Below, piece by piece: positions 9,329-36,924 of a stretch of 64,000 nt of DNA. Position 1 is the first letter of the stretch. Each line of letters opens with the position of its first letter. Source of the stretch: Candidatus Krumholzibacteriota bacterium (GTDB taxonomy: Bacteria; Krumholzibacteriota; Krumholzibacteriia; Krumholzibacteriales; Krumholzibacteriaceae); contig JAUWCL010000017.1 in NCBI GenBank assembly GCA_030609325.1, positions 1 to 64,000 of the forward strand, written 5' to 3'. A program made the position numbers and the translations under genes. Under the pieces are notes generated by a model, which worked only from the letters and a program-made list of their open reading frames with translations, made no database searches and was not told the origin of the DNA.

Positions 9329-10111
9329 CTAGCGTCCACCCGTCCCGGCCAGCATCACCGGCACGGTCTTGAGCATGATCTTCAGATCGAGCAGCATCGA
9401 CCAGTTCTCGATATAGTAGATATCCATCATCACCATTTCGTGAAACGTCACCGTGCTGCGTCCGCTGACCTGCCACAGCCCGGTGAGACCCGGCCTGACC
9501 TTCAGCCTCAACTTGTGCCACTCGTCGTAGCACTCGTATTCGTAAGGCAGCGGCGGCCTCGGCCCCACGATCGTCATCTCACCCCTGAGGATGTTGATGA
9601 ACTGGGGCAGTTCATCCAGGCTCGTCTTCCGCAGGAACCCGCCTACGGCGGTGATCCGCGGATCGTCTGTTATTTTATAAACCCTGTTCTTTCCTGCGTC
9701 AAGCGAAGGTTCGGGCTGTCGCCCCTGGATGAAATTGCGCGTAAACTCTCTATGGAGGGAATCGTCACAGTCGATCCTCATCGTGCGGAACTTGAAAAGG
9801 GCAAAGCCCCCCCCATTCTCCCCGATCCGTTCCTGTTTGAAGAAAACGGGACCCTTGGAGGTCAACTTGATCAACAGAGCGATGGCGAGAAAGAACGGGA
9901 ATCCGAGTCCAAGCACCGCCAGAGACGCCAGGATGTCTGTGCTTCTCTTCAGGATTCTGTCGAACCTGCTTCTCCTGAAGATCGCGTGACTCGTCTTGCT
10001 GGCCAGTCCCGCCTTTCCGAATTGCTCGGCGTTGGTGTAATTGTCCAGGGCCGCTGAATACTTTTCCATAGCAGCAATGTCCCGCCTGAAGACCCTAGTC
10101 TCGTATGTCAT
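9329..10111 (-). CDS. Phosphoglycosyl transferase, monotopic (bacterial sugar transferase)
   Basis: A 260-residue member of the WcaJ/PglC/RfbP C-terminal family, which moves a sugar-1-phosphate from a nucleotide sugar to undecaprenyl phosphate and so starts a glycan unit. A hydrophobic re-entrant segment (ILASLAVLGLGFPFFLAIAL) is near residues 63-82. The signatures KFRTM, SLDELPQFINIL, GPRPPLP and RPGLTGLWQVSGR follow in order; the Asp-Glu pair in LDELP is the catalytic dyad of this family. It lacks the extra N-terminal membrane bundle of WcaJ. A second, different copy lies at 35032-35727, so two glycans are probably initiated separately. Confidence 0.9.
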   Translation of the reverse strand: MTYETRVFRRDIAAMEKYSAALDNYTNAEQFGKAGLASKTSHAIFRRSRFDRILKRSTDILASLAVLGLGFPFFLAIALLIKLTSKGPVFFKQERIGENGGGFALFKFRTMRIDCDDSLHREFTRNFIQGRQPEPSLDAGKNRVYKITDDPRITAVGGFLRKTSLDELPQFINILRGEMTIVGPRPPLPYEYECYDEWHKLRLKVRPGLTGLWQVSGRSTVTFHEMVMMDIYYIENWSMLLDLKIMLKTVPVMLAGTGGR

Positions 10112-27248: not shown

Positions 27249-28751
27249 TCAGAATATGGATACGATCTTTTCCTTCAGCGGGATCGGGAGCCTCATCATC
27301 AGGGTCTTCTCCCTATCGCCTAACAATTTCAACAGCTTCACTCCTGCCAGCAGCAAGATTACCCCGATCAGCATCTGCACGGCAAGGGCGATGGTAGAAT
27401 TCCATCTCGAAGCGCTTATTCCGAGCAGGGCGGTCGGCAATGCGGCTAGATAACACCTGACCACGAATCCGGCCGGTATCGCAAGGCCGGAATCGAACCT
27501 TCCGGCGACCTTCCTGAAAACCACGACGGCCAGCAGCATTACGGCAGCTACAGGGAAAAACGCCCCCCACAACCCAAACCTGGGGATAAACACAAGATCC
27601 AGACCGATATTGACGATGGCAAGGGCGGCGAATACGAGCATGTTGACCCAGCTTTTCTCCATGACGTACAGGGCCATGCTAAGTGGAGTATAGAGAAAGG
27701 AGTACGAGAAGACAACGAAAAACAGCCTCGTCATTTCGGCCGCCGGGGCCATCCCCTCTCCGAAAAGGAGCGGTACGAGAGGTCCGGAGAACGCGAATCC
27801 CATCGCCGCCACCGGGACGACGAGCAGAAAGAGCAGCCTGTAATAGACATCTACCGATTCGGTGAGCTTTCCGGGGTCCTTCGCGTAAGCCTCTGATATC
27901 CCCGCCATGACGATCGGCCATATCGAGAGCGGGATGAACTCGAGCGCCATCTGCGGGATCCTGTATGCGAGCCCGAAATGACCGGCGGCCTTCATGCCGG
28001 TGAAATGACCGAGAAAGAGGACCTCCGAATGCCTCCAGACGATCTGGTTTAGAATGCCTGTCGCCACGAATGGAAGTGAATATCTCAGCATTCGCGCCGC
28101 TCCCGGCCCGGGAACATCATCGGTCGGTCCCTTCCCGGTCAGCTCGATCACCTCGGGCAGCAGGAGCAGGATCATCGCCAGATTGACCGCGCCCCCGGCG
28201 ACAAGCACCCCGGCAATACCCCAGCCTGCTTTCATAAACAGGATTAGTAGAATGACGTATGTTGCGTTACCTGCTACCATTACGATAGCCAGGCGCCTTG
28301 TCTCGTACCATGACTGGAGGACGTTCATAGTGAGCGACATACCCGCCTCGAAGAGGACGAGTCCGAGAGCGATGACGATATATGTCCTGAATACCGATGA
28401 ATCCTGGTGGAACACCGAGGCCAGCCAGTCTCCCGAGAGGTACCCGGCGAGCGTCAGTACGGCCCAGACAAGCGCCTGGAGCACGGCCAGTCGTCCCATG
28501 TCGGATATCAGGGTCCTCATGCCTCCCTTGACCCTCACCTCGGGGATATACCGCAGGACGGCCTTGCCGCCGCCGAGCATCACGATGACCAGTGCGAACC
28601 CTGTAACAGTCCTGAGGACGTTGAGTACTCCCCAGTCATGCTCTCCGAGAGAACGGACTATGACGATATACGCAAGAGGCATCGCGAGGAACCGGGCGAT
28701 CTTCGCCACCACGCTCCACGACATCGCCTTTCCCGCCTTCTCTAATATCAT
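27249..28751 (-). CDS. Polysaccharide flippase (Wzx/MATE-like)
   Basis: A 500-residue membrane protein starting MILEKAGKAMSWSVVAKIAR, with about 12-14 hydrophobic segments arranged as in the polysaccharide transporter family of the MOP superfamily. It should flip the undecaprenyl-linked repeat unit to the periplasmic face. The ATG at 28751 has a strong site (GGGAGGAAGGA) and overlaps the stop of the AlkP-fold gene by 4 bases (ATGA). The open frame continues upstream but has no features. Confidence 0.85.
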   Translation of the reverse strand: MILEKAGKAMSWSVVAKIARFLAMPLAYIVIVRSLGEHDWGVLNVLRTVTGFALVIVMLGGGKAVLRYIPEVRVKGGMRTLISDMGRLAVLQALVWAVLTLAGYLSGDWLASVFHQDSSVFRTYIVIALGLVLFEAGMSLTMNVLQSWYETRRLAIVMVAGNATYVILLILFMKAGWGIAGVLVAGGAVNLAMILLLLPEVIELTGKGPTDDVPGPGAARMLRYSLPFVATGILNQIVWRHSEVLFLGHFTGMKAAGHFGLAYRIPQMALEFIPLSIWPIVMAGISEAYAKDPGKLTESVDVYYRLLFLLVVPVAAMGFAFSGPLVPLLFGEGMAPAAEMTRLFFVVFSYSFLYTPLSMALYVMEKSWVNMLVFAALAIVNIGLDLVFIPRFGLWGAFFPVAAVMLLAVVVFRKVAGRFDSGLAIPAGFVVRCYLAALPTALLGISASRWNSTIALAVQMLIGVILLLAGVKLLKLLGDREKTLMMRLPIPLKEKIVSIF

Positions 28752-29881
28752 TCCTTCCTCCCACCCCCCCTGAATCCAGGCAGGAGAAATCGGGCGATTC
28801 CGGTGACAGGCGCCTCGTCCCCCTGAAACTCCTCGCTGGAGAACATTACGCTGTCCATACACGAGGCGCCGGGATGATACCCGTGCATCCCCTTCACGGG
28901 AGCGCTTCCCATGTAGCTCGGCAGGATGATCGTTCCAGGATCGCACAGGAACACGATGTCGCCGTACTCCCCCCGTGGAAAATGCACTCCGAGCGAATTC
29001 AGTTCTTCAGTCCCGAGCAGCTTCCCGCCCGGCGACCTCTCGAGGATTTCCGATATCGCCCTGGAGGCCCTTTCCCCCGAAACCCTGAAACGCGCCATCG
29101 TTGAATCATAAAATGGAACGTAGTCGCCGGGTATCTTCAGGCCTGTCGCCTCCACGGACTTGATCAGGTCGATATGGCCGGTCACGTCGCACATGCCGTG
29201 ATCACCCAGCACGATGAATCTCGGGTCGGGGAATCTCGATACGAGCGAGTCGATCCTCTCGCGGTAGAGTCTCAGCCTCGAACCGATCGCTTCTTCTCTG
29301 GATCCGTATCTGTGCAGATCCGAATCGAGCCCGGCAGTGTAGACTAGATGGAATGAGGACTCCCCCGTTTCGAGGGCGGATTCGAGCTCGTCGAACGCCT
29401 GCTCCTCCGGAGTGTCGTAGTCCCTTATGAAAACGCCGCCCTCATCGTACGCCTGGTCCAGAATGCTGCGCCTGTTCCCGCCTCCCAGCGGGCCGAACAC
29501 CGATTTCCGCGCTGGGAGATCGAGTCGTTCCAGGACCTCGCGCGGAATGTCGTAGAGGCTGAAATATGCCGTTACGCGGTCGATCCTCGACAGCTTCCAT
29601 CTCAGAAGATTGCGTACCCAGAGCCTGTCAGGTCCGCCGAACAGCCTGAGTCCCCGGAGCAGGCCGAAAGGCGATCCCCCGCCGACGAAGGAAAACATCA
29701 TCCAGAGCCCGTGAACGTCTGGGGCGCTTCCCGTGAGGATCGAGGTAAGCGCCGCCTGGCTGAAACCGAGAACAGTCTTGAGCCTGGTCCTGAACGGCAG
29801 ACTCCCGGGACTGAAGCCATGGTGATCGACCAACTCGCATCCTAGCGCGTCTATGAGGATAACGACCGTTCTCTCACCCAA
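28748..29881 (-). CDS. AlkP-superfamily hydrolase in the exopolysaccharide cluster
   Basis: A 377-residue alkaline-phosphatase-fold protein. VVILIDALGCELVD (residues 5-18) gives the first metal Asp, the region GFSQAALTSILTGSAPDVHG the nucleophile, VLGDHGMCDVTGH near residue 223 the second metal pair, and VKGMHGYHPG near residue 338 the last His. No signal peptide is seen. It is distinct in length and sequence from the other AlkP-fold protein at 13238-14719. It is coupled to the flippase gene by an ATGA overlap and overlaps the upstream nucleotidyltransferase gene by 8 bases. Substrate unknown; a phosphorylated lipid or glycan intermediate is a guess. Confidence 0.78.
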   Translation of the reverse strand: MGERTVVILIDALGCELVDHHGFSPGSLPFRTRLKTVLGFSQAALTSILTGSAPDVHGLWMMFSFVGGGSPFGLLRGLRLFGGPDRLWVRNLLRWKLSRIDRVTAYFSLYDIPREVLERLDLPARKSVFGPLGGGNRRSILDQAYDEGGVFIRDYDTPEEQAFDELESALETGESSFHLVYTAGLDSDLHRYGSREEAIGSRLRLYRERIDSLVSRFPDPRFIVLGDHGMCDVTGHIDLIKSVEATGLKIPGDYVPFYDSTMARFRVSGERASRAISEILERSPGGKLLGTEELNSLGVHFPRGEYGDIVFLCDPGTIILPSYMGSAPVKGMHGYHPGASCMDSVMFSSEEFQGDEAPVTGIARFLLPGFRGGGRKE

Positions 29882-31109
29882 GGTTCTCCTCCTCCCTGCC
29901 CGTCACCAGCCTGCGCCATTCCGCCGACGTCCTGGAAGCGGCTTCCCCCCACGATGTCCTGCCGTGGGGGTAACCTCCCGGAGCAGCTCCGACGACGCCG
30001 CCCGTGCCCTTCTCCGCCGCATGCCTGATCAGCCTGACTGATTCTTCCCTGATATGCCCGCCGGGCTCCCGCCCCGAGAGCAATGATCCTATAAAAAGTT
30101 TCATCCTGCCTGCGATCGAAATATCGTGAACGGCTGCATTCCAGGCCCGCAAGAGATCTGTGAACCGCAGCCTGCCCCCCACGTCCCGTCCGTGATCCTT
30201 CCGCGAGATCCCGTCCCTTACTGCCAGCAGATCCCCGGCAGCCTCGAGCCACATGCGCCATGCTCGATCCTCTTCCATCCATACCCTGTCCGCAACGGGG
30301 TCGATCTTGAATCCAGTCCACCTCACAGCATCGTCCGTGAGAGATCCTCCGAGTTCCCTGCGTACTTCCGAAGCCTCCGGCGAGTTGGCGAGGAATTCGG
30401 CTCTCGCGACGTAACCCGACCGGTACATGCTTTCCGCGCACAGCGATGAAGTCACAATATCGGTATATACACGGGACACCCCGTAGAGAAATCTGTAGAG
30501 ATCCTTACCTTCCGGCCTGTCCATTGCTGGTCTGTCGCCGAGGAATGCGGCCATCCTGTTCTCGAGAATCCTCAGGGCCTCCCGGGTCGCTATCTCACCG
30601 GGGCCGAACGACGGGAAACGATCGAGGAGTCCCTTTCCGCCGTGCAGCAGCACTCCCCTCTCACGCATATCGAACACCCCGGGAGACAGAGGCATCTCGG
30701 CGAGCTCTCCCGCCGTCATGACGCCTGCGTCTATCCTGCCTTCGAATCGGGCGTCTGGAAGAAGGTCCTCGCATGCCTTCCCGATGATCGATCTTCGAGG
30801 ATAAAGCACCGCATGAGACTCCGGCGAAGATACGACCAGCAGAAGATCCATATCCGAGAGAAAAACGGGGCCGCCGTAGAGCATTACAACGCTTCCCTCG
30901 CACGACGCGAAGCTGCCCGAAAGGATCAGCCCCTCCACATTGCCCGGCCCGGCCTTCCCGACGATCAGATCGCGGCACTGTTCGATGAATCCGGGGAAGA
31001 CGTCTGCGTACCAGGACTCGAGAGCGCTGTCGCTGCATCGGCGCTCAAGAGAAAAAACCCCGCGCCTGGGATTACACGGGAAGAGGTCTTCGCGGCTTTC
31101 GCCCTGCAC
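29874..31109 (-). CDS. Nucleotidyltransferase-fold protein of unknown target
   Basis: A 411-residue soluble protein. Residues about 53-90 carry a polymerase-beta-type nucleotidyltransferase motif: GSFASCEGS, then a strand with SDMDLLLVV (Asp-x-Asp metal site). The rest is mostly helical and is not recognised by me. Such enzymes add a nucleotide to a protein, RNA or small molecule, but the helix-rich C-terminal half gives no clue to which. The start is GTG at 31109, directly following the TAA of the CpsD-like gene, with AGGCGGG upstream. It overlaps the AlkP-fold gene by 8 bases. Confidence 0.6.
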   Translation of the reverse strand: MQGESREDLFPCNPRRGVFSLERRCSDSALESWYADVFPGFIEQCRDLIVGKAGPGNVEGLILSGSFASCEGSVVMLYGGPVFLSDMDLLLVVSSPESHAVLYPRRSIIGKACEDLLPDARFEGRIDAGVMTAGELAEMPLSPGVFDMRERGVLLHGGKGLLDRFPSFGPGEIATREALRILENRMAAFLGDRPAMDRPEGKDLYRFLYGVSRVYTDIVTSSLCAESMYRSGYVARAEFLANSPEASEVRRELGGSLTDDAVRWTGFKIDPVADRVWMEEDRAWRMWLEAAGDLLAVRDGISRKDHGRDVGGRLRFTDLLRAWNAAVHDISIAGRMKLFIGSLLSGREPGGHIREESVRLIRHAAEKGTGGVVGAAPGGYPHGRTSWGEAASRTSAEWRRLVTGREEENLG

Positions 31110-31874
31110 TTATACCCGCCTGTATATGAACTCGGGGATATAGTATTTCTTTCTGTTGAGCACGGTCCCGATGAACCTTCCATCGAGCTTCTGGATCATC
31201 AACATGGCCCGCTTGATAACCTCGCGCTTTGTCTTGCCGGACTGTACCACGATCACGGTACCTGTCGCGTACGAACCGATAATCGGCGTCTCCGGCGCCT
31301 CCATGACGGCGGAAGTATCGATCAGGATATAATCGTACATCTCCCTTATCGCGTTGATGAAGGTGGACATATTCTCCGAGTTGAACAGGGGCTGTGTGAT
31401 ATCGGCTCCCTTCCTCGGACCGATTGTCACGACGTCGAGGAATCCCCCGTCGACGTTCCTGATAACTTTTTCGAGAGGAGCGGAGCCGGAGAGGTAGGTG
31501 AGTATCCCCCTGTCGTTCTCCAGCCCGAACAGCGTATGGATCTCCGGATTGATAACGGCGCAATCGACGAGGAGCACACGGTCGGTCTGGCCCAGTGCCA
31601 GCAACCTCGCGAGAAATGCCACTATCGTCGTCTTCCCCTCTCCGGCGACTGCAGAGGTGAACATGATCACCCTGTAATCGTTGTTCTTCAGCTCCGAGTC
31701 GATCGAGTTTCTCAGGGTCATCAGCCCGCGCTTGAAGTTCTCGTCGACACCGCGGAGAAACGTGCTCCCGGGTTCCTGCCCCGGCTCGCGTTGGACGCGC
31801 ATCTGTTCCCTTTTTCGGGGATGTCCCGATTTGTTATTCTCGGCTTTTCTAAGCGCGTCAAAGATCTTGCTCAC
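31110..31874 (-). CDS. CpsD/BY-kinase-like P-loop protein with degenerate kinase motifs
   Basis: A 254-residue member of the bacterial tyrosine-kinase/ParA-like fold. It begins MSKIFDALRKAE, the usual lead of exopolysaccharide-associated kinases. Walker A is intact (SAVAGEGKTT, about residue 73). The Walker A-prime motif reads VLLVDCAVINP, without the second Asp and the Arg of the DxDxR consensus. Walker B reads YILIDTSAVMEAP, where DxxP is not followed by the usual PP. The C terminus has only a few tyrosines (KKYYIPEFIY), not a cluster. It may bind ATP and regulate Wzz without phosphorylating tyrosine. Confidence 0.78.
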   Translation of the reverse strand: MSKIFDALRKAENNKSGHPRKREQMRVQREPGQEPGSTFLRGVDENFKRGLMTLRNSIDSELKNNDYRVIMFTSAVAGEGKTTIVAFLARLLALGQTDRVLLVDCAVINPEIHTLFGLENDRGILTYLSGSAPLEKVIRNVDGGFLDVVTIGPRKGADITQPLFNSENMSTFINAIREMYDYILIDTSAVMEAPETPIIGSYATGTVIVVQSGKTKREVIKRAMLMIQKLDGRFIGTVLNRKKYYIPEFIYRRV

Positions 31875-31892
31875 ATCGATCTCCCTTCGGGA

Positions 31893-32738
31893 TCACGTCG
31901 GCCTGTTGCGTCTCTGGGTGACAGACGCTTCCTTGCTCTCGAGATCCCTGATCCCCTCCCGGACGATGCGTCCGTCGATCGTCCTCATATTCGATACGAA
32001 GCCGAGCAGGAGAACCCTGTCGCAGAGAACGTTGATCAGCCTCGGAGTGCCCCCTGAATAATGATATATCTCGTCCATCGCGTCATGCGTGAATACCGGG
32101 CCCCCGTTATGCTTCCCCGCGATATTCAGCCTGTATTCGATATATCTCTCGAAATCCTCCCTGCTGAGGATCGTTATCCTGCATATTCCGGGAATGCGCT
32201 GCCTCAGCTGGCGCATTTCGTTGAGATTGAGCATCGTCTCGAGCTCCGGCTGTCCTACAAGCATTATCTGTATCAGCTTCCGGTCGCGTGTCTCGAGGTT
32301 CGAGAGCATCCGAAGCTCCTCGAGTACGTCGGGACTCAGATTCTGCGCCTCGTCGATGATCAGAACGGTGTTCCTGTTCCTCTCGTACTGGCTGATCAGG
32401 AACCTGTTCAACGTCATCAGCATCTGTGCCTTGTTCTGTCCCTCGACTTCCAGTCCGAAATCGTTGCATATGAGATAGAGGAGCTGGTCGAAAGGGAATT
32501 TCGTCGTGAATACAAAAGCGACCTCCAGCGAAGGCTGGAACAGGTCTATGAACGCGTTCACCACCGTCGTCTTCCCGACGCCCGCTTCCCCGGTGACCGC
32601 GATGAATCCCTTCTTCTGGAATATCCCGTAGGTGATATATGCAAGCGCGTCCCTGTGACTCGTGCTCCTGTACAGGAACCTGGGGTCAGGCGTGACGTTG
32701 AAGGGAAGCTCTTTGAAACCGTAATATTCCTCGTACAT
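31893..32738 (-). CDS. ExeA-like AAA ATPase of exopolysaccharide clusters
   Basis: A 281-residue AAA-type ATPase. It starts MYEEYYGFKELPFNVTPDPR, the typical N-terminal signature of ExeA/GspA-like and XrtA-associated ATPases. Walker A is GEAGVGKTT (about residue 50), Walker B VLIIDEAQNL (about 127), and an arginine-rich sensor region LRQRIP follows. Homologues sit in exosortase/PEP-CTERM exopolysaccharide clusters, yet no exosortase or PEP-CTERM protein is visible here. It probably assists export or assembly. It is 5 bases downstream of the Wzz-like gene. Confidence 0.83.
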   Translation of the reverse strand: MYEEYYGFKELPFNVTPDPRFLYRSTSHRDALAYITYGIFQKKGFIAVTGEAGVGKTTVVNAFIDLFQPSLEVAFVFTTKFPFDQLLYLICNDFGLEVEGQNKAQMLMTLNRFLISQYERNRNTVLIIDEAQNLSPDVLEELRMLSNLETRDRKLIQIMLVGQPELETMLNLNEMRQLRQRIPGICRITILSREDFERYIEYRLNIAGKHNGGPVFTHDAMDEIYHYSGGTPRLINVLCDRVLLLGFVSNMRTIDGRIVREGIRDLESKEASVTQRRNRPT

Positions 32739-32743
32739 CTTAT

Positions 32744-34111
32744 TTACCTCTTGGAGTCAGGGAAACTCGCCAGCACCTGACATCCAAGCGTCTCCTCGGC
32801 CTCGGCCACGTTCTTGATCGAGTGGTCGAGATTATCGACAAAAAACGCAAATCCCAACGCTACGACCAGACTGAACATGGGCCCGAGAGCTATCCTCACG
32901 TAATCTCTCGTCTTTTTCCGGTATCCGTGCGACGCGGGCGAAAGGATAGTGACGTTCCACTCCGGATTGCTCGCCACCGATATCTTCGCGCTCATATGCT
33001 GCTGCGAGAGATCTTCGAACTGGGTCTCGGCCTGGGCAAGATCGATATTGACCCGGTGGAATTCGATCTCTTTCCCGGGAAATGCTTTCTTCTCGAGATT
33101 GAGCCTCGCAACCATGCCGGCAAGAGATTCTTCTTTTGTCCTCAGTATGTCGAGGTTCGCCAGGCCGACCGTCGTGAACGATTTGATCTCCTTGTCCATG
33201 TAGTAGTAGAGATCCTCGATCTGCCTGCGGACCTGCTTGAGGTCCTTGTGAGCCGCCGTATACTTCACGGCCAGCTCCGATTCCCTGAGGCGCATGTCCA
33301 TCAGCTTGTCGGCGTACCTCTCGATTGCCGTCTGCTTCAAGGCTTCCTGCGTCAGAGTGTTGGACAGCGCAGCCTGCTCGTCGATATCTAGATCCCGGAA
33401 GCTTTCGAGCTTCTTGATTATCTCTTCCTTCTCCCTGATCTCGTTGCGGACTTCCTCGAGCTCGATCAGATATCTGTCAAATCTGTCCAGTATCGAACGC
33501 TGCTGGTGCTTCAGGTCGACGATACCCCACTCGGTCCCAAGCCGGGTCTTCCTCTCCCGCAGGTGATCTATCCTTCCCTGCAGGCCGGCCAGTTCCTCCA
33601 TGAAGAAATCTTCCATTTCGGGGGGAGTCCTCACGTTGAGATAGTATTCCTTGTACGAATTGAGGACCGCGTCGACCGCGACCCTGCAGAAGACGGGATC
33701 GCTCGAAACATATGCAACCCACAGTACGTTCGACGTGCCGACGACACCGGACCCGACCCTGCCCACGTGCAGTCTTTCATCGCTTGAATAATCCTCGGGG
33801 AACAGATCTTCGATCAGCTCCCGCGCTCTGCCGACAACGACCTCGGACTTGATCATCTCGATCTGCGAGGCGATCTCCTCTTCCCAGGTCAGTACCCTAA
33901 CATAGGGATTGAAGACACCGGTGGCCTCCCCGCGCTGGACCATGAGCCTGCCTGTCGACTCGTAGACAGCCGGCTCTTTCATGTTCAGTATAAAGACTAT
34001 TACGGTGGCCACGACCACGATGCCGAGGATGATCCATTTCCTGCGGAAAATGACCTCGATGAAATCCTTGACGGTCGATTCCTTGCTTGTCGTCAGGCTC
34101 TTTTCGGCCAT
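32744..34111 (-). CDS. Wzz/GumC-type polysaccharide co-polymerase
   Basis: A 455-residue inner-membrane protein. A first transmembrane helix (WIILGIVVVATVIVFILNM, about residues 30-48) and a second near the C terminus (MFSLVVALGFAFFVDNL, about 412-428) enclose a large periplasmic region with long coiled-coil segments between about 165 and 350 (LAGLQGRIDHLRERKTRLG, LEEVRNEIREKEEIIKKLES). This controls chain length and links the polymerase to the Wza-like pore. The C-terminal cytoplasmic kinase domain of GumC-like fusions is absent; the separate CpsD-like gene two positions downstream probably takes that part. Confidence 0.88.
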   Translation of the reverse strand: MAEKSLTTSKESTVKDFIEVIFRRKWIILGIVVVATVIVFILNMKEPAVYESTGRLMVQRGEATGVFNPYVRVLTWEEEIASQIEMIKSEVVVGRARELIEDLFPEDYSSDERLHVGRVGSGVVGTSNVLWVAYVSSDPVFCRVAVDAVLNSYKEYYLNVRTPPEMEDFFMEELAGLQGRIDHLRERKTRLGTEWGIVDLKHQQRSILDRFDRYLIELEEVRNEIREKEEIIKKLESFRDLDIDEQAALSNTLTQEALKQTAIERYADKLMDMRLRESELAVKYTAAHKDLKQVRRQIEDLYYYMDKEIKSFTTVGLANLDILRTKEESLAGMVARLNLEKKAFPGKEIEFHRVNIDLAQAETQFEDLSQQHMSAKISVASNPEWNVTILSPASHGYRKKTRDYVRIALGPMFSLVVALGFAFFVDNLDHSIKNVAEAEETLGCQVLASFPDSKR

Positions 34112-34115
34112 ACCG

Positions 34116-34910
34116 CTACCTCAAAGTTCTCGCGTAATATTCGTACACGACCCCGGCGTTTGCGATCTGCCAGCCCTTCAGATAAATATCCATGGGTCTC
34201 CCGACAACGTCCCACAGTCTGTCGATGAACTGCTCGGTGGTCGCTATCCTCGACTTGGGCACGAATACGATGTCAAAGGGCTCCAGTGGTACATCAAGCG
34301 AAAAATCGTTCTTGGTCAATATCGCGTCGATGTTTACCTCTATTCCGACAATGTGATTCTCCGTAACGCGTCTTATGATCAGTACGTTGCTCTTGCGCGC
34401 GTCGTCCGTGTAGCCGTTCCCGACGGCAAGCGCCTGCATCAGTGTCATGTTGCGGATATATTCGTAGCCTCCCGGATTGTCCACCTCACCTAGAACATAG
34501 ACATTCTGCGGCTGGAAGTCCTTCACAATCACAGTAATATAGGGGTCGACGATGATCTCGGAGAATTTCTCGGTCAGTACGGTGTCGAGACGGGCGGGAG
34601 TCATGCCGGCTATGAACATCTCTCCGGCATATGGATATGTTATTCTACCGTCAGGCAGTACCTTCAGACCTTCCCTGGAATACTTGTTCTCGTAGAGAAA
34701 TATCACGTCGAGGACATCGCCGTAGCCGATATAATAACTTTCGGCTTCAGGAGCGGCCGGAACGCTGTCGGGATCAAGGTCCGACCAGAAGATTTCGCCG
34801 TCGATCTGATCACAGACGCGGCTTCCGCCGGCTCTGCAACCGGACAGGACGAGCGCGATCAGCGCAAGAACAGCTAATGTGATGTAAATACGAGTTTTTC
34901 GACCCTTCAT
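34116..34910 (-). CDS. Wza-family polysaccharide export lipoprotein
   Basis: A 264-residue outer-membrane export protein. The signal peptide ends in a lipobox (LVLSGC, acylated Cys near residue 25). The export domain starts at YYIGYGDVLDVIFLYEN, and an SLBB-type region follows (VYVLGEVDNPGGYEYIRNMT). It should form the outer-membrane channel for the exopolysaccharide, coupled to the Wzz-like protein, whose gene starts 4 bases later. The TTGACA at 34991-34996 may provide an internal promoter for this gene. Confidence 0.9.
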   Translation of the reverse strand: MKGRKTRIYITLAVLALIALVLSGCRAGGSRVCDQIDGEIFWSDLDPDSVPAAPEAESYYIGYGDVLDVIFLYENKYSREGLKVLPDGRITYPYAGEMFIAGMTPARLDTVLTEKFSEIIVDPYITVIVKDFQPQNVYVLGEVDNPGGYEYIRNMTLMQALAVGNGYTDDARKSNVLIIRRVTENHIVGIEVNIDAILTKNDFSLDVPLEPFDIVFVPKSRIATTEQFIDRLWDVVGRPMDIYLKGWQIANAGVVYEYYARTLR

Positions 34911-35031: not shown

Positions 35032-35727
35032 TCAATAGGCCCCTTTCCTGGCTATCACGGCTGGGATGGTTTTGAGCATGATCTTCATATCCGTGACGAG
35101 GCTTCTGTTGCGGATATATTCCAGATCGAGTCTCATCCACTCCTGGAATCCGATATGGCTCCTACCGGCGATCTGCCAGTAGCATGTGATTCCTGGAGTT
35201 ACATCCAATCGTTTTCTCTGCCAGGGAAGGTACTGTGAGACCTCAAATGGGAGATTGGGACGCGGACCTACGATACTCATGTCGCCCTTGAGCACGTTGA
35301 GCAGCTGTGGGAGTTCATCGAAGCTCGACCGTCTGAGGAACCTGCCCGTGCCAGTGACCCTGGGATCCTCCTTCAGCTTGAAAACGGGCCCGTCTACACC
35401 GCTGAGGGACCTGAGAGACGCTATGACGTTCTCCGCCCCTACATGCATCGAGCGAAACTTGTAAAAATCGAACTCCCGGCCGTCCTTGCCGACCCTCTTC
35501 TGCCTGAAAAGTACGGGGCCGGGAGAATCGAGCTTGATAAGGAGCACTATTATGGGTATCACAGGAAGAAACAGGAGCAGGATCAGTGAAGCGACGGCGA
35601 TGTCCGTAAATCTCTTGAAGATGCCGAAGATCCTCCTTCTCTCGATAGCGGGATTGTCGGCGGGATCTTCGACAATGGAGCTCGCGGGCTCTGTGATAAG
35701 CTCTTTCATTTCGGAGTACCCAGTCAT
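35032..35727 (-). CDS. Second phosphoglycosyl transferase (bacterial sugar transferase)
   Basis: A 231-residue monotopic phosphoglycosyl transferase. The re-entrant hydrophobic segment (IAVASLILLLFLPVIPIIVL) is near residues 46-65, followed by KFRSM, SFDELPQLLNVL (catalytic Asp-Glu), GPRPNLP and TPGITCYWQIAGR. It would start the cluster 2 exopolysaccharide on undecaprenyl phosphate. It is about 30 residues shorter than the copy at 9329-10111 and clearly diverged from it. Its mRNA leader is about 147 bases long and strongly structured, ending in an intrinsic terminator right before the ribosome site, so transcription of the whole downstream cluster may be controlled here. Confidence 0.9.
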   Translation of the reverse strand: MTGYSEMKELITEPASSIVEDPADNPAIERRRIFGIFKRFTDIAVASLILLLFLPVIPIIVLLIKLDSPGPVLFRQKRVGKDGREFDFYKFRSMHVGAENVIASLRSLSGVDGPVFKLKEDPRVTGTGRFLRRSSFDELPQLLNVLKGDMSIVGPRPNLPFEVSQYLPWQRKRLDVTPGITCYWQIAGRSHIGFQEWMRLDLEYIRNRSLVTDMKIMLKTIPAVIARKGAY

Positions 35728-35874
35728 TGCTCCTCCAAAAAACCCGGGTCTGATTCCTCAGCCCAGGTTCCGGCGCATAAAAAAACTGCTGCAGAACTCA
35801 CTTCACGTCAATCGTGCTGTCTTAGCTGAAGTAAATACCTTTAGCAGATTTCTCTGAGTACACCTCCATGTACA
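35728..35874 (-). promoter_or_regulatory. Structured 5' leader with terminator against the ribosome site (attenuator or riboswitch candidate)
   Basis: Reading on the minus strand from the expected start near 35874, these elements follow. A hairpin GUACA/UGUAC lies at 35858-35873. A CAGA-GAAA-UCUG tetraloop hairpin lies at 35845-35856. CUGCU (35843-35847) can pair with AGCAG (35786-35790), which is followed at once by seven U (35779-35785). That pairing encloses a 10-bp stem (35827-35836 with 35796-35805). CUGCU also overlaps the tetraloop hairpin, so the two are mutually exclusive. A second hairpin with six U abuts the SD sequence. I do not recognise a known riboswitch class. Confidence 0.6.
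35737..35767 (-). terminator. Intrinsic terminator inside the leader
   Basis: On the minus strand CCUGGG-CUGA, loop GGAA, UCAG-A-CCCGGG (35743-35767) form a 10-bp stem with one bulged A, followed by six U (35737-35742). The SD sequence GGAGGA (35731-35736) starts directly after the U run, 4 bases from the ATG. Its position argues for attenuation; it could alternatively end transcripts of the upstream DUF3108 operon. Confidence 0.75.
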
Positions 35875-35880
35875 AATAAT

Positions 35881-35910
35881 ATACTATCACGAAATGAGGC
35901 GCGGTGTCAA
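35881..35910 (-). promoter_or_regulatory. Promoter of exopolysaccharide cluster 2
   Basis: On the minus strand TTGACA (35905-35910) and TAGTAT (35881-35886) are 18 bases apart. The expected start of transcription, near 35874, falls exactly at the first hairpin of the leader. The -35 and the six following bases (TTGACACCGCGC) are identical to the promoter at 4258-4286. Confidence 0.65.
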
Positions 35911-35976: not shown

Positions 35977-36924
35977 TCATGAGAGCAGGGCCGAGTAGAT
36001 CAGAGGGATAATTATCTCGTGATGGCCGGTAAGCGATATCGCCTCTCCGCCGAAGGCGGCAGGCCTCGAGAGGACATTCTCTCCGGGTCTGTAATGCGAG
36101 GTCATGTCCAGATTGCAGGCGGTTATCCCCTCGAAGCCGGCGCCGAGGTTCCTCGCGACGCTCAGTGCCTTGAGGAATACTTCCGGCAGTATCACGGCGG
36201 AACCGGCGTTTACGATGACACCGCCGTTCTCCCCCAGCGCACACACCCTCGCGGCAAATATCCTGAAATCCCTTGCGGAAAGCTCGCCCCAGAGGGACCC
36301 GTCGAAGCCGGGGTGCTGGACGATGATATCGGTACCGACAGCAACGTGGACGGTGACCGGCACCTTCTCAATCGCGGCCCTCGATGTGATGCTGACGTCC
36401 CTGTAGGGTGCGTCGCTCGCTGCGATGAACCTCCCGACCGCCTCTCCCAGGCCGAGGCCCTCAGCCGCTCCCCTGTCGACCGCATCGAAGAGGAGCCCGG
36501 CAGTTTCCTTCGCGAAACCGAATTCGCCTTTCTCGAGCTGCGCCGGCACATCCTCCGACGTCTTCCCGAAGAATGCCAGTTCGAGGTCGTGGATGATCCC
36601 GGCACCGTTGAGGGCAAGGGCGGTCACGTATCCCTTTTTCATCAGGTCGGCCAGGTAGGGAGACAGGCCGCACTTGATCACGTGGGCGCCGGCCATCCAG
36701 ATCAGCTCGCGTCCCTTCGCCGATCGGGCCCTCCGCATGGCGAGCGTCAGTTTCCTGAGCCGGCTGACCGCCAGCTGGTCGGGCAGCGAATCGAGCCATT
36801 TCCTGAAGGCCTTGCCACCCTTGACGGGGGTCCCCATCATATCGACGGTGACCTTGCTCTCCCTTTCGGAGATCGATGACGTCCTGACCCTGCCGAGATC
36901 GACTTCTTCGTATCCGCTTCCCAT
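35977..36924 (-). CDS. Deoxyhypusine-synthase-like protein without the usual lysine
   Basis: A 315-residue protein whose core resembles deoxyhypusine synthase: AGAHVIKCGLSPYLADLM (about residues 79-96) and LNGAGIIHDLELAFFGKTSE (about 104-123) match the NAD-binding and substrate loops of that fold. In deoxyhypusine synthase a lysine near the C terminus carries the butylamine intermediate. Here the last 40 residues (after HYRPGENVLSRP) contain no lysine. Bacteria also lack eIF5A, so another reaction is likely, perhaps on a polyamine or another amine; this is inference. It overlaps the DUF3108 gene by one base (TGATG), implying a functional pair. Confidence 0.6.
   Translation of the reverse strand: MGSGYEEVDLGRVRTSSISERESKVTVDMMGTPVKGGKAFRKWLDSLPDQLAVSRLRKLTLAMRRARSAKGRELIWMAGAHVIKCGLSPYLADLMKKGYVTALALNGAGIIHDLELAFFGKTSEDVPAQLEKGEFGFAKETAGLLFDAVDRGAAEGLGLGEAVGRFIAASDAPYRDVSITSRAAIEKVPVTVHVAVGTDIIVQHPGFDGSLWGELSARDFRIFAARVCALGENGGVIVNAGSAVILPEVFLKALSVARNLGAGFEGITACNLDMTSHYRPGENVLSRPAAFGGEAISLTGHHEIIIPLIYSALLS

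Follow-up and report, generated by a model that had tools for sequence, protein, structure and literature searches.

Described leaders and the Krumholzibacteriota locus

Terminator hairpins that respond to proteins are known from the BglG/LicT RAT sites, PyrR, and ribosomal-protein leaders, in which a single conserved stem overlaps the terminator. In polysaccharide operons, JUMPstart/ops with RfaH and the LoaP leaders are 5' UTR elements that act on transcription elongation. The epsC/EAR RNA of Bacillus (RF01735), a structured leader with a predicted pseudoknot, is tied to exopolysaccharide operons and is linked to transcription elongation (PMC2864571). The c-di-GMP-I riboswitch Bc1 has two tandem terminators close together before the gene (PMC11218506).

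The window, the whole stretch of 64,000 nucleotides that was analysed, comes from a Candidatus Krumholzibacteriota bacterium, as its orthologues in named genomes show. It carries on its minus strand a promoter, a leader of about 147 nucleotides, and a sugar transferase gene, in that order. The leader resembles EAR in being a structured leader of an exopolysaccharide operon, the JUMPstart/ops and LoaP leaders in being a 5' UTR element of a polysaccharide operon, Bc1 in that two intrinsic terminators are predicted near each other before the gene, and the protein-responsive leaders in that one conserved stem overlaps a terminator. It differs from EAR in that the EAR model gave no match, no pseudoknot was seen, the element was found in Krumholzibacteriota only, and its long hairpin (P1) has a U run of its own. 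Unlike JUMPstart/ops and the LoaP leaders, it has a long covarying stem rather than a short ops or hairpin element, and no NusG paralogue was found. It lacks a match to the c-di-GMP aptamer and has a single-stem architecture, in contrast to Bc1, and no partner protein like those of the RAT, PyrR, and ribosomal-protein leaders was identified.

A covariance-model search of the leader against Rfam, at the gathering threshold and with E values up to 10, yielded only sub-threshold matches to unrelated families (E of at least 3.4), in agreement with the original prediction, which could match the fold to no riboswitch class. The RNA is described neither in Rfam nor in the papers searched, and the literature search found no paper joining Krumholzibacteriota and riboswitches. 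A conserved cis-regulatory leader with terminator hairpins, which probably controls entry into exopolysaccharide synthesis, is well supported; its features are collected in Table 1. It would represent a new, orphan family of leader RNAs whose kind, the leader attenuator, is known, and it is not filed here as a riboswitch. Such an RNA would be a phylum-wide orphan regulator associated with a single gene, that of the entry step of exopolysaccharide synthesis.

Table 1. Positions of the leader elements, the transferase operon, and related leader loci
Feature	Position	Strand	Basis or remark
Sigma70-type promoter with extended -10, TTGACA-N18-TAGTAT preceded by TGA	35881..35910	(-)	Sequence; same layout in relatives
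GGAGG box near RNA 5' end, no start codon behind; GUACA/UGUAC flanks can form a 5' hairpin	35863..35867	(-)	Sequence; relatives
P1, long conserved hairpin; 5' arm (U)CUGCUAAAGGUAUUUACUUC, 3' arm GAAGUGAGUUCUGCAGCAG	35781..35852	(-)	Fold; covariation
U7 run directly 3' of P1, predicted terminator 1	35779..35785	(-)	Sequence; relatives
P3, second G+C-rich hairpin, consensus CCCGGGC...GCCCGGG	35741..35769	(-)	Covariation
U6 run after P3, predicted terminator 2, touches the Shine-Dalgarno sequence	35737..35742	(-)	Sequence; relatives
Shine-Dalgarno GGAGG of the transferase gene	35732..35736	(-)	Sequence; ATG at 35727
Initiating sugar transferase (phosphoglycosyl transferase), 231 aa, putatively controlled gene	35032..35727	(-)	Pfam Bac_transf PF02397, E 5.6e-67
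Downstream same-strand genes	27249..34910	(-)	Pfam/NCBIfam
Polysaccharide export	34116-34910	(-)	
Wzz-like	32744-34111	(-)	
XrtA-type ATPase	31893-32738	(-)	
Tyrosine kinase homologue	31110-31874	(-)	
411-aa product in the polysaccharide operon	29874-31109	(-)	No Pfam or NCBIfam match
Phosphodiesterase-like	28748-29881	(-)	
Polysaccharide flippase-like	27249-28946	(-)	
Leader loci of rsmA/ksgA-like genes: L222 (G042), L224 (G045), L229 (G040)	~1501-1760 (locus coordinates)		Family f7

Promoter, hairpins, and conservation within the order

The promoter and the leader of about 147 bases that had been predicted earlier were confirmed on the minus strand. The promoter consists of TTGACA at 35910-35905, a spacer of 18 nt, and TG-A-TAGTAT with the -10 at 35886-35881, and transcription is predicted to start at about 35874. 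An equal layout is found ahead of the leader in 22 genomes of the order. The RNA from 35874 to 35728 folds with a minimum free energy of -52.7 kcal/mol (z of -4.3), which none of 200 shuffled sequences equalled, and the leaders of other members of the order have z values of -2.8 to -9. The structured leader with two U runs that the original prediction described is borne out, with U7 and U6 both present.

The first hairpin had been described as CUGCU pairing with AGCAG directly before seven U. That pairing was recovered (CUGCU at 35847-35843, AGCAG at 35790-35786, followed at once by the U run), but the stem is larger, comprising about 25 imperfect pairs with a far apical loop. In the alignment of P1, 92.8% of the cells are paired, compared with 46 to 53% in slid controls, and both sides have changed in 9 of the 23 pairs (3.6 in shuffles, standard deviation 1.4). 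In each of the 22 genomes, 5 to 8 of the first 8 nt on the 3' side of P1 are U. The hairpin consists of one long stem, conserved in sequence on both strands, with an apical loop that varies in length and letters, and no conserved unpaired core or multi-way junction was seen in it among the leaders of the order.

The second hairpin with six U adjoining the Shine-Dalgarno sequence is also present. P3 is paired in 93.4% of alignment cells, compared with 14 to 58% for slid versions, and both sides have changed in eight of nine pairs, compared with 3.1 in shuffles, none of which (0 of 500) was as good. A good U run follows P3 in about two-thirds of the order and a weaker one in the remaining members. 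The covariation that was expected in the leaders of relatives therefore appears in both P1 and P3, and both the slid and the shuffled controls fail. A G+C-rich hairpin with a U run between the promoter and the start codon, the arrangement of an attenuator, is kept in relatives. Two terminator-like hairpins that are conserved and covary in 22 genomes, with the only strong promoter-like site before the transferase gene lying upstream of both, argue for the attenuator that had been proposed.

When 58 relatives were searched with the transferase protein and the DNA upstream of the orthologues was read, each of the 22 genomes of the order with a detected orthologue of the sugar transferase gene had the leader before it. 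Leader identity within the genus is 90 to 93%, versus 39 to 51% for the 66 nt just upstream; across genera these values are 56% and 34%. A covariance model, R1, built from 17 sequences of the family, gave a single matching locus in each of 18 of the 20 family genomes, in every case ahead of the transferase gene. The two genomes with no match are 61 to 62% complete, and the transferase gene is missing from them too. A second, weaker match in some genomes comes from the complementary strand at that locus, and no leader was found elsewhere in the genome. Before the second transferase gene in the window (9338-9979), no leader was seen.

In a second family, a diverged leader was present in the four genomes in which the transferase gene was found. 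With filters off, R1 applied to 38 kb placed three of these leaders and one from a third family (L031) in the top four positions and the remaining second-family leader fifth. Of the matches in 55 transferase loci from named genomes, those with E below 0.01 were all leaders of the window's own family; there was a weak match at one locus of another phylum (L074, E of 0.15) and no convincing match among the loci from other phyla.

The GGAGG box near the 5' end of the RNA, absent from the original prediction, is conserved more strongly than any other part of the leader. It occurs in 32 of the 32 leaders read, 22 from the order and 10 from other families. Its flanking arms are complementary in about half of the members of the order, with a mean arm score of 9.6 versus 7.1 (standard deviation 0.5) for shuffled flanks, a value 4.7 standard deviations above the shuffles that is to be read with the GUAC arms being common to related genera. 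No conserved ATG, GTG, or TTG stands at a usable distance behind the box in the leaders compared. TTG CTA TAG is present in some leaders and lost in others, including that of the window.

The expectation that control would act on the first step of exopolysaccharide synthesis agrees with the gene content, in which a Bac_transf protein is followed by homologues of polysaccharide export, Wzz-like, XrtA ATPase, and tyrosine kinase proteins. The downstream genes are presumably cotranscribed with the transferase gene. A strong terminator-like hairpin with U6 lies inside the operon on the minus strand (31081-31058), just within the start of the ORF that encodes the 411-aa product.

Diverged leaders in other families

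In four other families (f3, f4, f7, and f8), a promoter and the GGAGG box, followed 9 to 26 nt later by YUGNUA or YUGNUG, precede the same transferase gene. In f7, a terminator-like hairpin with U7 to U8 lies downstream of a stem bearing this motif, about 100 nt before the gene. A terminator of this kind was not seen in the f3, f4, and f8 leaders, in which single-sequence folds of six leaders pair the segment behind GGAGG with the ribosome-binding region. For example, GCUAUCGAGCC and GGCUCGGUAGC are predicted to pair just before the AUG of L169, as are UCGUCUGU and ACAGACGA in L032. Four of the six (L029, L173, L174, and L185) are no more stable than shuffles. A change of platform in f3, f4, and f8, from terminator to pairing with the ribosome-binding site, is therefore likely rather than proven, because it is read from single-sequence predictions of which these four do not exceed shuffles. 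The pattern was found in none of the f5 and f6 upstream regions tested; in these families the transferase gene mostly lies close behind another gene.

No strong Shine-Dalgarno sequence stands right before the AUG in f4 and f8 (L169, L174, L185, and L032). The predicted hairpin may bring the distant GGAGG near the AUG in these leaders.

Alternative folds and candidate signals

In the proposed mechanism, the leader RNA would act in cis to control the first gene of the exopolysaccharide operon by premature termination. Transcription would start constitutively, and the polymerase would stop at P1 or P3 unless a signal blocked the formation of P1 or let the polymerase pass. In f3, f4, and f8, the 3' arm of P1 would cover the ribosome-binding region, and the same element would control translation. 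Output thus seems to depend on the family, by terminator or by pairing with the ribosome-binding site, which would make the element a compact system for studying what bacteria sense before building a matrix.

The original prediction had CUGCU switching between AGCAG and an upstream tetraloop hairpin. The hairpin is present in the window (CAGA-GAAA-UCUG, 35856-35845), but only 4 of the 18 family members have it. This switch is not supported, because the hairpin is limited to this genus and one of its neighbours. When the RNA was folded up to, but not including, the 3' arm of P1, an alternative with flanking helices recurred that pairs GGAG with CUUC of the P1 5' arm and looks suggestive by eye. 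For the pre-P1 RNA, however, it is the fold of lowest energy in only 8 of 18 leaders, chimeras are nearly as stable (-8.9 versus -8.1), a genus-level swap test gave a P value of about 0.11, and shuffled flanks gave a combined z of about -0.5, with no signal. With the conserved bases kept constant, the alternative thus does not exceed chance, and a mutually exclusive switch is hypothetical, since this was the best conserved candidate. Alternation between the two folds is attractive as a hypothesis in that it would explain the GGAGG box. In two f7 leaders (L028 and L031), CCUC in the arm of P1 is a possible partner of the box.

Conserved unpaired junctions are typical of metabolite aptamers. Conservation of both strands of one long stem with a variable apical loop instead suggests that the stem is recognized, and for this reason a protein that recognizes the P1 stem is somewhat more likely as the signal than a metabolite. 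A riboswitch of a new class, in which the attenuator RNA itself binds a metabolite or second messenger such as c-di-GMP or a sugar nucleotide, is possible but on balance unlikely. A switch between termination and ribosome-binding-site pairing is typical of riboswitches, the step under control is a committed one, and GGDEF proteins are encoded, making c-di-GMP a possible signal. Against this, the element serves a single gene with one copy per genome, has neither a multi-way junction nor a conserved unpaired core, tolerates free variation of sequence and length in its apical loop, and matches no known class.

The constancy of the GGAGG box, found near the 5' end and with no start codon in all leaders read, raises another possibility, that free 30S subunits or a GGA-binding protein bind it as the signal or to stabilize the transcript. 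STAB-SD in Bacillus is a precedent for a GGAGG-type transcript stabilizer, and GUACAGGGAGGUGUAC resembles a CsrA site. Such binding is nevertheless improbable. CsrA was not found in the 95% complete genome, in which positive controls were detected, the 5' hairpin occurs in only about half of the order, and the box in f7 can pair with the P1 arm instead. It is similarly doubtful that the leader represents a new class of regulatory RNA whose sensor is the box. In that reading, binding of free 30S subunits, a protein, or a ligand-shaped fold would keep the box from engaging the P1 5' arm and so decide between the terminator or ribosome-binding-site hairpin and an open leader. Were this the case, slime or capsule synthesis throughout the phylum would be linked to the supply of ribosomes or to a second messenger.

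Processive antitermination, or polarity suppression of the EAR, put, or JUMPstart/ops type, would have an RNA-modified polymerase pass P3 and the terminators inside the long operon. The leader precedes a long polysaccharide operon, as do EAR (epsC) and JUMPstart (PMC2864571), and has a conserved long stem, and the terminator-like hairpin inside the operon would matter if the leader acted in this way. We regard this explanation as quite improbable. One NusG-family match was found in each of 19 genomes, with none over threshold in the other 6, and a single NusG in each genome that gave a match argues against RfaH or LoaP. The Rfam epsC model gave no match, a U run belonging to P1 itself is odd for an antiterminator, and the versions that pair with the ribosome-binding site have no terminator to pass. 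A search for ANTAR proteins gave no match, but neither did its controls.

P1 with its full U run might also end a separate small RNA, in which case a transcript begun upstream would supply the transferase; the same-strand gene upstream ends 66 nt before the promoter. This is very unlikely for the reasons that the upstream DNA differs among genomes while leader and gene stay together, no promoter-like site lies between P1 and the gene, and the ribosome-binding-site versions have no terminator. The upstream neighbour (35977-36924, minus strand) encodes a GSU2086-family protein (NCBIfam NF052581), and by eye the same gene appears to lie upstream in several, not all, of the other family genomes.

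An attenuator with a strong SD-like sequence close to its 5' end might also work by leader-peptide attenuation, in which GGAGG would start translation of a short peptide and stalling on it would control the hairpins. This reading is close to refuted, because no conserved short ORF follows the box, whereas at L147, another locus of the same genome with the promoter-AGGAGG pattern, an ordinary ATG follows at once.

A similar arrangement of promoter, GGAGG, and ...UUGCUACC leader with a GGAGGAUUCUCC-type hairpin, giving no Rfam match, was seen ahead of rsmA/ksgA-like genes in three f7 genomes. A related element may here precede a second gene, or the short motifs may recur by chance.
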